DNA from: a virus
Reading direction: 5' to 3' (one strand)
DNA length: 21,133 bases
IMG/VR virus record: IMGVR_UViG_3300036770_003577
Span: 1-21,133 of that record
This document shows positions 6,195 to 15,397 of this stretch, in pieces (the first letter of the stretch is position 1; the number at the start of each line of letters is the position of its first letter). The translations under genes were made by a program, and so were the position numbers. Under the pieces are notes generated by a model. It ran no database searches, was not told the origin of the DNA, and saw nothing but the letters and a program-made list of their open reading frames with translations.

Positions 6195-6922
6195 TAAACC
6201 GAGAGAATATAACATTCTTCGATTTAGAAACAACTGGGTTAAGTACAGATAAGGATAAGATAGTTTCAATTTACGCAGTTAATCCTCGTAAGAAATTTGA
6301 AATTCATACTATACTTGATCCAGAAGTATTGATAACACCAGAATTAACTGCTATTCATGGTATTGATAATAAAATAGTTAAGGGAAAACCTAAATTTATT
6401 CATGTTGCTCCAACTATTAAATCAATGTTTGAAAGTAGTGATTATCTGGCAGGGTATAACATACGTAAATTTGATATACCATTTATTCAATCAATGTTTC
6501 AAAGAGAGAATGAAGAGTTTAATATTGAAGAATTAAAATACATTGACGTGTATTTAATAGCAGTCAATATTATCCCGGAAAGTGATTTAAAGGCTCTTCC
6601 TGACACTAAATTAAAGTCGGTATATAAATATATCACCGGGGAGGAGTTAGACGCTCACAGGGCTAAAAATGACGTTATAGCGTGTATTGAAATACTAGAA
6701 GAATTTGACCGGCAAAAACTAAATTGGCGCGGGCTTATTTTGAGTAAGGAAGATTTACCTGATTATGAAATATCAAACTTAGATTATATTATGAAGTATG
6801 GTAAGCATAAAGGTAGTACAATTAGGGAGATTATCTCTAATGATAAGAGTTATGCTAAATGGATGGTAGACAAACGAATGATTAAGCTATCATCTGATTT
6901 ATTGACATTAATTAAAAAATAA
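6191..6922 (+). CDS. DnaQ-like 3'-5' exonuclease with ExoX-like C-terminus
   Basis: The 243-residue protein is a DEDDh-type 3'-5' exonuclease. Exo I is FFDLETTGL (Asp11, Glu13), then AIHGID at 54-59, Exo II GYNIRKFDIPFI with Asp95, and Exo III AHRAKNDVIA with His156 and Asp161; all four acidic ligands and the catalytic His are present. Residues about 196-243 (YIMKYGKHKGSTIREI...YAKWMVD) match the small ExoX-like C-terminal domain found behind many such nucleases. It starts inside the previous stop (ATGA) and its own stop overlaps the next start by one base. The DNA polymerase downstream has its own exonuclease domain, so this enzyme more likely trims DNA ends or degrades DNA than serves as the proofreader. 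Confidence 0.9.
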   Translation: MINRENITFFDLETTGLSTDKDKIVSIYAVNPRKKFEIHTILDPEVLITPELTAIHGIDNKIVKGKPKFIHVAPTIKSMFESSDYLAGYNIRKFDIPFIQSMFQRENEEFNIEELKYIDVYLIAVNIIPESDLKALPDTKLKSVYKYITGEELDAHRAKNDVIACIEILEEFDRQKLNWRGLILSKEDLPDYEISNLDYIMKYGKHKGSTIREIISNDKSYAKWMVDKRMIKLSSDLLTLIKK

Positions 6923-11136: not shown

Positions 11137-11887
11137 TCCACCAGGCCATTTACCACGTATAATGACTCAAGCTCAAGCAGTAATGCAAAATAAAGAGTAT
11201 ATACGTAAACGTGCTAGTGGTGAGATTACATTTTTAGAGACATGTTATCCTAGATTGAATAAGGCATTAATGTTGGAGCCAAATACTATGTTGACTATCA
11301 GTGGTTTAAGTGGAAGCGGAAAATCAACTCTTAGTAAGAGAATTAGTAATAGTATTCATGCTAATCTTATTAAATCAGGTAAACAAGCAATTGGATTAAG
11401 TTTTAATTTTGAAATGTTAGCACATAAAACTATCGGTCGAGAGGTAGCTAATATGTCTAAAATGACATTACAAGAACTGTATTCAAATGAACATCCGTTG
11501 GCTGAAGCTATAATGGAAAAGGTATTTAAACAATACCATTCTAAATTATTTGATTATCCACTTATTTATGTTGAGGAACCACAAGATTGGAAAGTAATAG
11601 GAGATACTATTTATTATTACTGGAGTGAATTATGTAAAAATGGTGAGTATATTATTGTTGAAATAGATCATGCTGTTATTACTCGTGGTAGAACTGGTGA
11701 AACCCAGAAAGATAAAATAGATAACTTAATGGAAGAATTAAATAGAGTAAAGAAACGTATTGCATATGAAGGAGGTAATGTATTTTTCATAATACTTTCA
11801 CAAATGAATCGTGAAATTAAAAGTACAGAGAGACTTTCAGCTCCATCGTTACACTATCCAATTACTAGCGATTTATTCGCTTCGGGT
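11099..11887 (+). CDS. dnaB: DnaB-type replicative helicase, exon 1
   Basis: Exon 1 encodes 263 residues of a DnaB-family RecA-like helicase motor. Walker A is SGLSGSGKST (68-77), the catalytic-Glu motif FNFEM (Glu105) corresponds to FSLEM of DnaB, Walker B is YIIVEIDHA (Asp190), motif 3 is ILSQMNREI (233-240), and the exon ends in YPITSDLFASG. I choose the ATG at 11099, which overlaps the previous gene by 38 bases; a TTG at 11057 is open but adds 14 unconvincing residues. The N-terminal DnaB domain is absent, so this is a motor-only helicase. Read unspliced, the frame continues only 13 codons into the intron and stops at 11927-11929. The last base T11887 fits the U expected at a group I 5' splice site. 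Confidence 0.9.
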
Positions 11888-13203
11888 AAAAATAAAACAT
11901 TAAATGGATTATATAATGTAGTTTCATAAATATTATTTGTAAATTTGTAATTAATATAATTAATACAAAATAATAAAATATAAATTATTTATGACACTTA
12001 TTGAAAAGATTAAAGAATTAGGTCCTGAATTAAAAAACATGACTATTAAAGAAGTTTCTGAAAAACTTAATTGTGATAATAGTCATGTTGGTAAAACAGT
12101 TAAAAAATTAGGATTAAAATGTAAAAAAGCAGATAAATCTAAATACGGATTTATGGTAAAAGCAGGACATAGATACTCAAGAATTAAAAAACTTGTTGAG
12201 CTTGGGTACACTAATCAAGAAATATGTTTATTAACAGATGAAAAACAAACTAATCTAATAAAATATAAACATAAGGTAGGTATTCCTTGTAATCAGTATA
12301 GAAAAGTAGAATTAACTAATATACAAAAGCAAGTAATAATAGGATCTTCTTTAGGCGATGCTTATATAGAACCAAGTGATAGTAATAAGACTGCTGCTAT
12401 AGTTTTTAAACATTCCTTGAAACAAAAAGATTTTTTAGAATTTAAGAAAAACTGTTTGACAACTTTAATATATCCTAGTAAACAATGTATGGTAATGAAA
12501 ACAAAAATTCTTAAAAAAAGAAAAAGTATTTTAGACGGTAGGGAAATAGAGTCGGAAGCCATTGAAACTAGAACAATGCATCATCCTTGTTTAACATACT
12601 ATCGTGATATTTTTTATCCTAATGGTGTTAAAATAGTACCTAAAGAAATACTGGATGAAATAGATGCTATGGGGATTGCAGTATGGTTTATGGATGATGG
12701 TATTAAATACCATGGATATTCATTTAAAATATGTACTCATTCTTTTTCTAAAGAAAATGTCAATCTTTTAGTAGATATGTTTAAAAAAAGATTTAATATT
12801 AATTCTCATTGTTATACAGATTCTGGTAATTATAATATACTTGTTATAGATGCTTCAAGTATACATGATTTCAGAAGACTTATAGAACCTTATATAATTC
12901 CTAGTATGGCTTATAAACTATACGAAAATAAAATGCTCGAATAAAACCTTGTGAATTGCTGGAAAACCCGAAACTAGGACAATCAGCAGCCAAGTATCAT
13001 AGAAATATGATAAAGGTTCAACGACTAATTAAAGTAATCTTACCAAGTTGTGTTGGAGATGAAATAAACACGAGCGCAAGGATGTTAATTATACTTATAC
13101 AAAAAGTTAAACGTTAACATATGATATAGTCTCATCTACCAATATAAGTTAAAAATAAAATGGTAGGAGTAGTAGGATAAAGAGCCTACGAAATAAGAAT
13201 ATG
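11888..13203 (+). ncRNA. Group I intron in the dnaB-like gene
   Basis: The 1316-base intron interrupts motif SDLFASG|AIEFFSDY; E. coli DnaB has SDLRESGSIEQDAD there, so this junction gives a gap-free match. Core elements: P1 of TTCGGGT (11881-11887) with GCTCGAA (12935-12941), 7 bp ending in U-G; P4-like TGCTG/CAGCA (12957-12961 / 12984-12988); a 7-bp hairpin TATCATA-GAAA-TATGATA (12995-13012); P7 GACTA (13023-13027) with TAGTC (13127-13131); P9 CTACCA/TGGTAG (13136-13141 / 13161-13166); and a further hairpin GTAGG/CCTAC (13172-13176 / 13185-13189). The last base is G13203. The endonuclease gene fills the P1 loop. A convincing P10 was not found, so the 3' end rests on the protein match and the comparison with the second intron. 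Confidence 0.88.
11991..12944 (+). CDS. LAGLIDADG homing endonuclease of the dnaB intron
   Basis: This is a 317-residue homing endonuclease. The N-terminal part (about 1-105) has helix-turn-helix-like segments (MTIKEVSEKLNCDNSHVGKTVKKLG, then GYTNQEICLLTDEKQTNLIKYKHKVG). The nuclease core has two LAGLIDADG motifs: QVIIGSSLGDAYIEP (about 114-128) and MGIAVWFMDDGIK (about 224-236), both with the acidic residue kept; the second is the form common in the LAGLIDADG_2 family. As a two-motif protein it should cut as a monomer at the intronless dnaB junction, spreading the intron. The ATG lies 103 bases into the intron, in very AT-rich DNA. The last codons (ATG CTC GAA) also supply the strand that pairs with the 5' exon. 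Confidence 0.92.
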   Translation: MTLIEKIKELGPELKNMTIKEVSEKLNCDNSHVGKTVKKLGLKCKKADKSKYGFMVKAGHRYSRIKKLVELGYTNQEICLLTDEKQTNLIKYKHKVGIPCNQYRKVELTNIQKQVIIGSSLGDAYIEPSDSNKTAAIVFKHSLKQKDFLEFKKNCLTTLIYPSKQCMVMKTKILKKRKSILDGREIESEAIETRTMHHPCLTYYRDIFYPNGVKIVPKEILDEIDAMGIAVWFMDDGIKYHGYSFKICTHSFSKENVNLLVDMFKKRFNINSHCYTDSGNYNILVIDASSIHDFRRLIEPYIIPSMAYKLYENKMLE

Positions 13204-13519: not shown

Positions 13520-14056
13520 ATGTCAAAGAAAGGAGAATTGGTATTAACCAGTACAACTGAAGATTTATTCAATGCAGCTAATTACTTGATTGAAAAGAAA
13601 GTAGTTCCATCAAGTATTAAACGTCCTGAAGATGTTGTAACCATTATCAATATGGGTAAGCAACTTGGAATGGAACCAATCACTGCTTTAAATTCAATGA
13701 ATTTAATTCAAGGTAACGTTGCTTTGAAGAGTTCAGTAATTCCAGGTTTATTAGCTAATGCAGGTATTGCAACAGAATTAATTAAAGATTATGAACCAGT
13801 AATGGTACGTAAACCATCTGTAATGCTTGATAAAGATAATAAACCAGTTGTAGATGAAAATGGTAATGTTAAATATTACCGTGGACCAGATGGAGAAATA
13901 CTTTATAAAGAAACACAATTAGAGGTAAATGGTCATCTTGAATTTGTAACAACTATTAGATTTCATAGATTCTATGAGAAGTTAAATCGCACAATATCAA
14001 GTGATTATTCATTTTATTGGAGTGATTGTGTTTCTGCGGATTGGCACAAGAAGGAT
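13520..14056 (+). CDS. recT: RecT-type single-strand annealing protein, exon 1
   Basis: Exon 1 encodes the first 179 residues of a RecT-family annealing protein, which pairs complementary single strands during phage recombination. Family features are visible: the N-terminal helix, IINMGKQLGMEPITALNSMNLIQGNVALKSSVIPGLLANAG (about 48-90), a charged variable middle, and VTTIRFHRFYEKLNRTISSDYSFYWSDCVSADWHKKD at the end of the exon, which leads into the conserved NW-x-x-x-P-x-x-M block of exon 2. Without splicing, a TAA comes directly after the last exon codon, removing the 63 C-terminal residues. The gene lies between helicase and SSB genes, both natural partners. Confidence 0.88.
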
Positions 14057-15205
14057 TAATTAAAAATAAGTGTCATGAAGAGAATAATAACAGAATTAGA
14101 AAAGAGAAAGGTGATTAATCTTGCAAAAAATGGTTTTAGCAGACCAAATATAGCTAAAATGTCAGGAGTGAGTCAAGCTTCTGTAGATAGAATACTACGT
14201 AAAACAGGTGTTAGTTCAAATGGTAGAGCTAAAGCTGTAAGGCCAAATCACGATGAAAAGGTTAGGGAATTACATTCAAAAGGAATTCCTGATAAAGAAG
14301 CTTATTCACAATCCGGTTTATCATATGCTCAATATTTATTTGTACGTAAGAAATTAGGTTTAAAATATATTGCTGTTAAACAAGTTTGTAATTTATCTCA
14401 ACGTCAAAAAGAGATATTAATAGGAACAATGATGGGTGATGGTAATATATCAAAATGTGGTAAAGGTACTCGTATCGAAACATATAAAATAAATATAGGT
14501 CATTCTCACAAGCAGTATAAATATTTTGAATGGAAGTTAGAACAACTTAATATTAAAGGTAGTATTTTCTGTAGAATGTCTAGTAAAAATCATTGGGGTT
14601 TGTGGGCTAGTTCTTTACCATATGAAAATCTTAAATATTATTATCGAATGTTTTATATTAATGGTGTAAAAACTATTACTAAAAACATGCTTGAGAAATT
14701 AACACCATTATCTATAGCTGTTTGGTACATGGATGATGGAACTGTAAGTGATACATATTATATATGTACTCAAGGTTTTGGTAAAGAAGGTTGTGAAAAA
14801 ATAAGAACTTGGTTATATAATAAATATAGTATTGAATCAAGTTTAAATTATCCTAAATCTCAAGACCAACCAGTCCTTAGAATAAAATCATCATCTCGTA
14901 GTAAATTTACTGAATTAATTGAACCTCATATATTACCAGAATTTAACTATAAAATATATTCCAGTAGTCCTTCTAAAAAATCCCGTTAAACAAGGAAACT
15001 CTCAATGAGACAACCCTGTGCTAAATCATTTAGAAATAAATGTAAATGCCGAACGACTAGACATGATGCTTAACAGATAATGCTGATGCTATAAATTGTC
15101 CACGAAAGCGGGAGTCATGTATAAGAATACATGATATGATATAGTCTAAACTATATAGTGATATATAGAAGTATAGAATAAAGAATCTATACATTAATAA
15201 AATTG
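14057..15205 (+). ncRNA. Group I intron in the recT-like gene
   Basis: The 1149-base intron starts with TAA in frame and ends in G15205. P1 is AGAAGGAT of the exon (14049-14056) with GTCCTTCT (14967-14974): 8 bp ending in the diagnostic U-G. P10 is ACTGG of exon 2 (15207-15211) with CCAGT (14961-14965), immediately next to the P1 strand as expected. Core: hairpin TCTC-AAT-GAGA (15000-15010, P5-like), CATTTA-GAAA-TAAATG (15027-15042), P7 GACTA (15055-15059) with TAGTC (15142-15146), P9 CTATATA-GTGA-TATATAG (15151-15168), and GTATAG/CTATAC (15171-15176 / 15187-15192). It shares AACGACTA and ATGATATAGTCT with the dnaB intron. The joined reading frame is HKKD|NWKKLPRFM. Subgroup was not determined. 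Confidence 0.93.
14075..14989 (+). CDS. LAGLIDADG homing endonuclease of the recT intron
   Basis: This is a 304-residue homing endonuclease whose ATG lies 18 bases into the intron. The N-terminal 100 residues hold two helix-turn-helix-like segments (KVINLAKNGFSRPNIAKMSGVSQASVDRILRKTG, and GIPDKEAYSQSGLSYAQYLFVRKKLG), probably adding DNA contacts. The nuclease core has motif 1 KEILIGTMMGDGNIS (about 111-125) and motif 2 LSIAVWYMDDGTV (about 219-231), both with the acidic residue. It belongs to the same family as the enzyme in the dnaB intron but is clearly diverged. The last codons, 296-300 (TCC AGT AGT CCT TCT), contain both the P10 and P1 pairing strands of the ribozyme, so C-terminal sequence is constrained at RNA level. 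Confidence 0.93.
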   Translation: MKRIITELEKRKVINLAKNGFSRPNIAKMSGVSQASVDRILRKTGVSSNGRAKAVRPNHDEKVRELHSKGIPDKEAYSQSGLSYAQYLFVRKKLGLKYIAVKQVCNLSQRQKEILIGTMMGDGNISKCGKGTRIETYKINIGHSHKQYKYFEWKLEQLNIKGSIFCRMSSKNHWGLWASSLPYENLKYYYRMFYINGVKTITKNMLEKLTPLSIAVWYMDDGTVSDTYYICTQGFGKEGCEKIRTWLYNKYSIESSLNYPKSQDQPVLRIKSSSRSKFTELIEPHILPEFNYKIYSSSPSKKSR

Positions 15206-15397
15206 AACTGGAAAAAATTACCAAGATTTATGATGTATGCTCGATGTGTTGTACGTGGTGCAAGAGGTGTAGCGAGTGACATCATGGGTGGTCTATACGA
15301 TACTCATGAAGTAGCTGAATTTTCTAAAATTGATTTTACATTAGATCCAAAAACTAACGACGTTATTCCCGTTGAATACGAGGAAGTAGACGTATAA
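15206..15397 (+). CDS. recT: RecT-type single-strand annealing protein, exon 2
   Basis: Exon 2 adds 63 residues starting NWKKLPRFMMYARCVVRGARGVASDIMGGLYDTHEVAEF, which is the conserved RecT C-terminal block (W-x-x-x-P-x-x-M-x-x-R...R...D-x-x-x-G-x-Y-x-x-x-E). The spliced protein is 242 residues. A TTG at 15203 could be misread as a separate start, but it straddles the intron end and the exon cannot fold as RecT alone. The C-terminus is acidic (VIPVEYEEVDV). The stop TAA lies inside the second copy of the leader motif. Confidence 0.87.
   Translation, partial: NWKKLPRFMMYARCVVRGARGVASDIMGGLYDTHEVAEFSKIDFTLDPKTNDVIPVEYEEVDV

Follow-up and report, generated by a model that had tools for sequence, protein, structure and literature searches.

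In a viral sequence fragment of metagenomic origin (the window, i.e. the whole stretch of 21,133 nt analysed here), the open reading frame of a homing endonuclease runs into the ribozyme core of the group I intron that harbors it. This raises the question whether the last codons of the nuclease gene at the same time guide the splicing of the intron and, if so, whether the overlap couples translation to splicing or reflects the passive extension of a reading frame.

The splice junction follows from the host gene. Exon 1 of a recT-like gene (13520-14056, + strand) is open up to position 14056, and the first codon of the intron is a TAA (14057-14059). Joining 14056 to 15206, the first base of exon 2 (15206-15397, + strand), restores the RecT frame and yields a protein of 242 residues (..HKKD|NWKKLPRF..). 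The intronless homologue L014 contains a single unbroken frame that reads ..NKKDNWKKLPRF.. across the junction (68% identity to the joined exons, 233 aa), and a cut placed one base upstream or downstream would not fit the conserved D-N codons. Since the joined frame matches that of the intronless L014, the junction is known independently of any RNA pairing.

The segment delimited by this joining (14057-15205, + strand) matches the Rfam family RF00028 with 60.0 bits and an E-value of 4.5e-15 (gathering threshold 50; scan of a short stretch), indicating a group I intron with a td/sunY (IA2-like) core. The RF00028 alignment reveals the helices P3-P4-P5-P6-P7-P8 in the expected order, all on the + strand: the 5′ strand of P3, UCCCGUU (14981-14987), pairs with positions 15106-15107 and 15109-15113 of its 3′ strand AA.CGGGA (15106-15113); P4-P5-P6 and the 5′ strand of P7 extend over 14990-15059, with GACUA at 15055-15059; the P8 hairpin GUCAUGUAU..AUACAUGAU is located at 15114-15135; and UAGUC (15142-15146) provides the 3′ strand of P7, the guanosine-binding helix. 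Over about 75 nt the core is 78.7% identical to that of the T4 nrdD (sunY) intron, and by this similarity the intron would be placed as IA2-like, of the td/sunY type. The features of group I splice sites are present as well, namely the U14056-G14967 pair in P1 and the intron-terminal G15205 (omega G), and the RNA is predicted to self-splice. That the intron has decayed and no longer splices, its pairings being relics, is very unlikely: a single mismatch in P4 of the Rfam alignment would fit such decay, whereas the core is complete, the exon frame and the ORF are intact and neither P1 nor P10 is degraded.

Neither of the two group I introns was reported by an Rfam cmscan of the whole window (1-21133) with an E-value limit of 1, while scans of short stretches found both. 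We therefore dismissed the empty result as a filter effect, as the same search on short stretches detects the introns. Group I introns can escape Rfam scans of whole contigs.

The ORF of 304 codons (14075-14989, + strand) encodes a LAGLIDADG_2 homing endonuclease. Its match to PF03161 (E 3.6e-33) comprises residues 112-278 and the full-length profile (1-168), that is, the domain with the catalytic motifs. The start codon is located 15 nt downstream of the exon 1 stop, and the stop codon TAA (14987-14989) lies inside P3/J3-4. As the earlier note had proposed, the gene fills the P1 loop; it also runs past it, with 30 nt of its 3′ end (14960-14989) lying over ribozyme structure and spanning strands of P10, P1 and P3. 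Here, the 5′ strand of P3 coincides with the last codons and the first base of the stop. The nuclease would be expected to cleave the intronless form of recT, and an allele of this kind exists (L014).

The same note had placed the internal guide within the last codons of this gene, and the pairing bears this out. The 3′ strand of P1, GTCCTTCT (14967-14974, + strand; codons 298-300), is wholly complementary to the end of exon 1, AGAAGGAT (14049-14056, + strand), which results in 8 bp with a U-G pair at the splice site, formed by the 5′ splice-site base U14056 and G14967. For P10, the proposed strand CCAGT (14961-14965) does pair with exon 2, but the helix is one base pair longer than had been stated: TCCAGT (14960-14965, + strand; codons 296-297) forms 6 bp with ACTGGA (15207-15212), leaving A14966 and A15206 unpaired. 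Re-reading the coordinates and codons likewise places both guide strands in codons 296-300 (TCC AGT AGT CCT TCT), and the same bases serve as codons and as guide for both splice sites.

Among all stretches of the intron, 14967 is the best guide candidate, followed by 14610 (7 pairs, 3 of them wobbles) and 14873 (6 pairs). Chance yields a G-U-led run of at least 8 at the fixed splice site in 0.3% of cases if the search is confined to a random 25-nt zone upstream of P3, and in 13% if a whole random intron of 1149 nt is searched. Because the pairing as judged from the window alone is suggestive, relatives of the intron were collected.

For this, protein searches were combined with DNA patterns taken from the ribozyme core. 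The first relatives from the protein search were inteins, ORFs in other loops and free-standing genes, with no P1-loop case among them, and in a scan of genome_contigs for P1-loop members none of the loci passed the P7-motif filter. For the comparison, 14 introns whose P1 loop carries an ORF were chosen without regard to pairing, and the guide zone was scanned against the exon end. A further set comprised 27 introns of phages in which a LAGLIDADG ORF lies in the P1 loop and adjoins a P7 motif. A first permutation test, for which the splice sites had been picked by hand on the basis of pairing, was dropped as circular. The splice sites of the relatives are set by pairing and reading frame, except where an intronless homologue exists.

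In the scans, which took the best score in the same way for own and for swapped guides, the 14 introns reached a mean score of 14.6 with their own guides vs 11.7 with swapped guides (p 1.5e-5; 1.4e-4 with one intron per site), and the 27 LAGLIDADG introns 14.2 vs 12.0 (0 of 200,000 permutations), all of these permutation p-values being optimistic, since the relatives share ancestry and their independence is overstated. Most of the best matches share one register, located 13, 16 or 18 nt upstream of the P3/J3-4 anchor, and the offset shifts slightly with the P3 variant. In L249, L266, L282 and L318 the best match falls off the family register, and L266 has none at that register.

Compensatory changes between the C-terminal codons and the exon, the comparison that the earlier note had called for, were found among the relatives in two groups of introns sharing an insertion site. 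The first is located in a RecA-like ATPase gene (..DD|YQY..; the intronless homologue reads IIDD|FQY). In L094 and L219 the exon ends with GACGAT and the guide reads GTCGTC, and in L155 and L249 the exon ends with GATGAT and the guide reads GTCATC. The exon change is synonymous; the matching change of the guide alters the tail of the nuclease, which reads SRLK or CRLK with the GTCGTC guides vs SHHK or KSSL with the GTCATC guides. At the second site, in a helicase gene (..K/R-D|), the exon ends CGAGAT, AGAGAT and AAGGAT are matched by the guides GTCTCG, GTCTCT and GTCCTT, respectively (L199 among them), the equivalence of the positions being judged by lining up the protein ends (..ADxKxxxRD / KD) and not by a formal alignment. 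In addition, the P10 strands co-vary with exon 2.

Taken together, the sequences of the relatives make the proposed pairing firm. It is exceedingly improbable that the true guide is located elsewhere in the intron and that the match within the ORF arose by chance. Such a reading could invoke the 13% of random introns of equal length that contain an 8-pair match somewhere, as well as the stretches at 14610 and 14873, which pair over 6-7 nt. However, these alternatives are shorter or rich in wobbles and distant from the core, whereas the match at 14967 lies at the family register beside P3 with P10 adjoining, and both the swap test across the family and the compensatory changes favour this register.

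A DnaB-like helicase gene of the window is also split by a group I intron (11888-13203, + strand; RF00028, 52.5 bits, E 8.2e-13), which is absent from L014. Its P1 loop likewise contains a LAGLIDADG_2 ORF (11991-12944, + strand), and its guide GCTCGAA (12935-12941, + strand) lies in the last codons (..ATG CTC GAA TAA), pairing with the exon end ..TTCGGGT (11881-11887) over 7 pairs, including the U-G pair and one further wobble. When a P10 was sought in this intron, none was recognisable. The ends of this intron rest partly on pairing, and the protein match to L014 (..LMASSSIEFF.. vs ..LFASGAIEFF.. at the junction) supports them to within a codon.

Several further arrangements were observed among the relatives. 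At the ATPase site, the ORFs of L155 (1783-2688, - strand), L156 (5166-6071, + strand), L219 (8482-9396, + strand) and L249 (2685-3584, - strand) span P1, P3, P4, P5, P6 and the 5′ strand of P7 up to approximately the 3′ strand of P3 or P8. In these four introns nearly the whole ribozyme core is coding, with a tail of the form ..KTPLNxETPxxDNxVLNxQEIEExA..AGHC... Other ORFs are found in the P1 loop of introns of this type, namely a GIY-YIG ORF (L015), an Endonuclease_7 ORF (L246) and an ORF without Pfam match (L028), and the latter two extend over the guide as well. In L239, ARAGORN predicts a tRNA-Leu(UAA) gene (6723-6797, minus strand) inside a group I intron, positioned between the 5′ strand of P7 and the 3′ strand of P3.

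The guide and the protein are separated by a natural deletion. L170 and L034 share about 99% identity on both flanks, and about 990 nt comprising almost the whole ORF are absent from L170. The same deletion junction is found in L242, L247 and L248, and L228 represents the ORF-bearing form, as does L034. Since the L170-type deletion retains the guide, along with a few preceding codons of the loop, and not the ORF, the guide is kept where the protein is gone. At the L034 site the splice-site pair reads as C-A and not as U-G, with 7 bp at the same register. A reading of P1 with U-G only had missed this site, and allowing C-A recovered it; C-A may stand in for U-G at the splice sites of group I introns.

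On the protein side, the last invariant residues among the 11 relatives compared are Y292 and K293, the codons of which typically lie only 5-10 nt upstream of the guide. The tail that follows varies in both sequence and length among these relatives, and residues 300-304 have a pLDDT below 50 in the structure model. The residues encoded by the guide thus probably constitute an unstructured tail that the enzyme does not need. The converse, namely that the C-terminal codons are constrained as protein, e.g. as a DNA-contacting tail, and that the RNA pairing is secondary, is highly improbable. Such a function might fit a short tail with many basic residues (KKSR), but this tail is conserved neither in sequence nor in length, it is modelled with low confidence, and the guide survives in an intron without the ORF. 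For annotation, this means that no protein signal should be read into the C-terminal residues of such nucleases.

Why, then, does the gene extend over the guide? Core creep, as put forward by Edgell, Chalamcharla and Belfort (2011, PMC3073962), predicts a variable extension and an inessential end of the ORF; it was proposed from scattered single cases, and some of the overlaps were cautioned as possible annotation errors. In the recT intron, the 3′ end of the ORF lies over ribozyme structure, and across the family the length of the extension varies, as expected for core creep. The frame includes the entire guide in 21 of the 27 introns and stops upstream of it in the remaining 6, and the stop codons lie between 19 nt upstream and 186 nt downstream of the guide start, in all three frames. 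As counted over 26 introns, the guide is covered by the ORF in 20, compared with 16.7 ± 2.4 expected from random stops at the base composition of these ORFs; coverage is near the chance level. The overlap itself is real, recurring in about twenty related phage introns.

We consider it very likely that a mobile td/sunY-type intron carries a LAGLIDADG ORF in its P1 loop that passively runs into the guide. As the conserved nuclease domain and the guide sequence nearly abut, the frame usually continues through the latter to the next in-frame stop, here the UAA in P3/J3-4. By pairing with both exons, the guide would choose the splice sites; the host gene would dictate its sequence, and the encoded tail would change whenever the guide must. 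This process would correspond to core creep at the 3′ side of P1, and we infer that the overlap is a by-product.

The earlier note had gone further and proposed that, on any one RNA molecule, translation of the endonuclease should rule out splicing and vice versa. Strict exclusion is not supported: a ribosome would cover the guide only while reading the last codons, and P1 could form afterwards. Transient interference between translation and splicing is plausible, and is expected because ribosomes reading the last codons or finishing exon 1 would occupy strands of P1. A ribosome terminating at 14987-14989 would mask the guide and the 5′ strand of P3, and ribosomes translating exon 1 would stop at the first intron codon, on the other strand of P1. 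According to a passage in PMC2988022, which cites Gibb and Edgell 2010, splicing of td in T4 drops when translation of I-TevI is unregulated (for precedent see also PMC3073962). However, since the guide is made after the whole ORF and P1 would form once the ribosome leaves, the RNA may be translated first and spliced later, and the excised intron would still carry the complete ORF.

The masking of both P1 strands and the T4 precedent could also be taken to suggest a selected switch, in which ribosomes finishing the nuclease block P1, so that an RNA is either translated or spliced and the balance between nuclease and RecT is set in this way. We regard this as unlikely, as the frame ends ahead of the guide in 6 of the 27 relatives, overlap is about as frequent as expected from random stops, the interference would be transient with the guide transcribed after the ORF, and a regulatory hairpin sought at the start codon of the nuclease was not significant (z -0.77). 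It is equally doubtful that the guide is kept in the last codons by selection because the finishing ribosome masks P1 and thereby delays splicing until the nuclease has been synthesised at least once; if true, the intron family would carry a built-in order of translating first and splicing later.

One homologous family of phage introns provides 27 cases in which the constraint on the RNA can be read from the host gene: the exon determines the guide, which in turn determines the tail of the enzyme in those introns whose ORF covers it (21 of 27). Core creep thus becomes testable by means of the variable stops and the natural ORF-deletion pair that retains the guide. A search of the open-licence literature by titles and abstracts returned no description of covariation between guide and exon in such ORFs.

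The kind of overlap is already known from P1. The intron in the tRNA-fMet gene of Synechocystis encodes I-Ssp6803I. Its ORF is located in P1 and overlaps P1/P2 by 61 nt (Table 1, PMC3073962). There, the enzyme is a PD-(D/E)-XK nuclease and the host a tRNA gene, whereas the present introns combine LAGLIDADG_2 enzymes and phage protein genes with a family-wide covariation of guide and exon. The Physarum LSU intron likewise carries its ORF, of the His-Cys box type, in the P1 loop, but no overlap with intron structure is listed for it (Table 1, PMC3073962). The T4 nrdD (sunY) intron, which encodes I-TevII, shares the core over about 75 nt; judged from coordinates relative to the core match, its GIY-YIG ORF lies downstream of the matched stretch and not in the P1 loop. 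The arrangement is also reminiscent of T4 td and I-TevI (PMC3073962), likewise a phage intron with a similar type of core, in which the ORF reaches from a loop into the ribozyme core and stops there, the last codons double as structural RNA and, as would apply here, the tail lies outside the needed part of the protein. In td, however, the ORF is located in P6 and 20 nt overlap P6a/P6.0/P7 (PMC3073962), whereas in the recT intron it occupies the P1 loop and overlaps P3 as well as the P10 and P1 guide strands.
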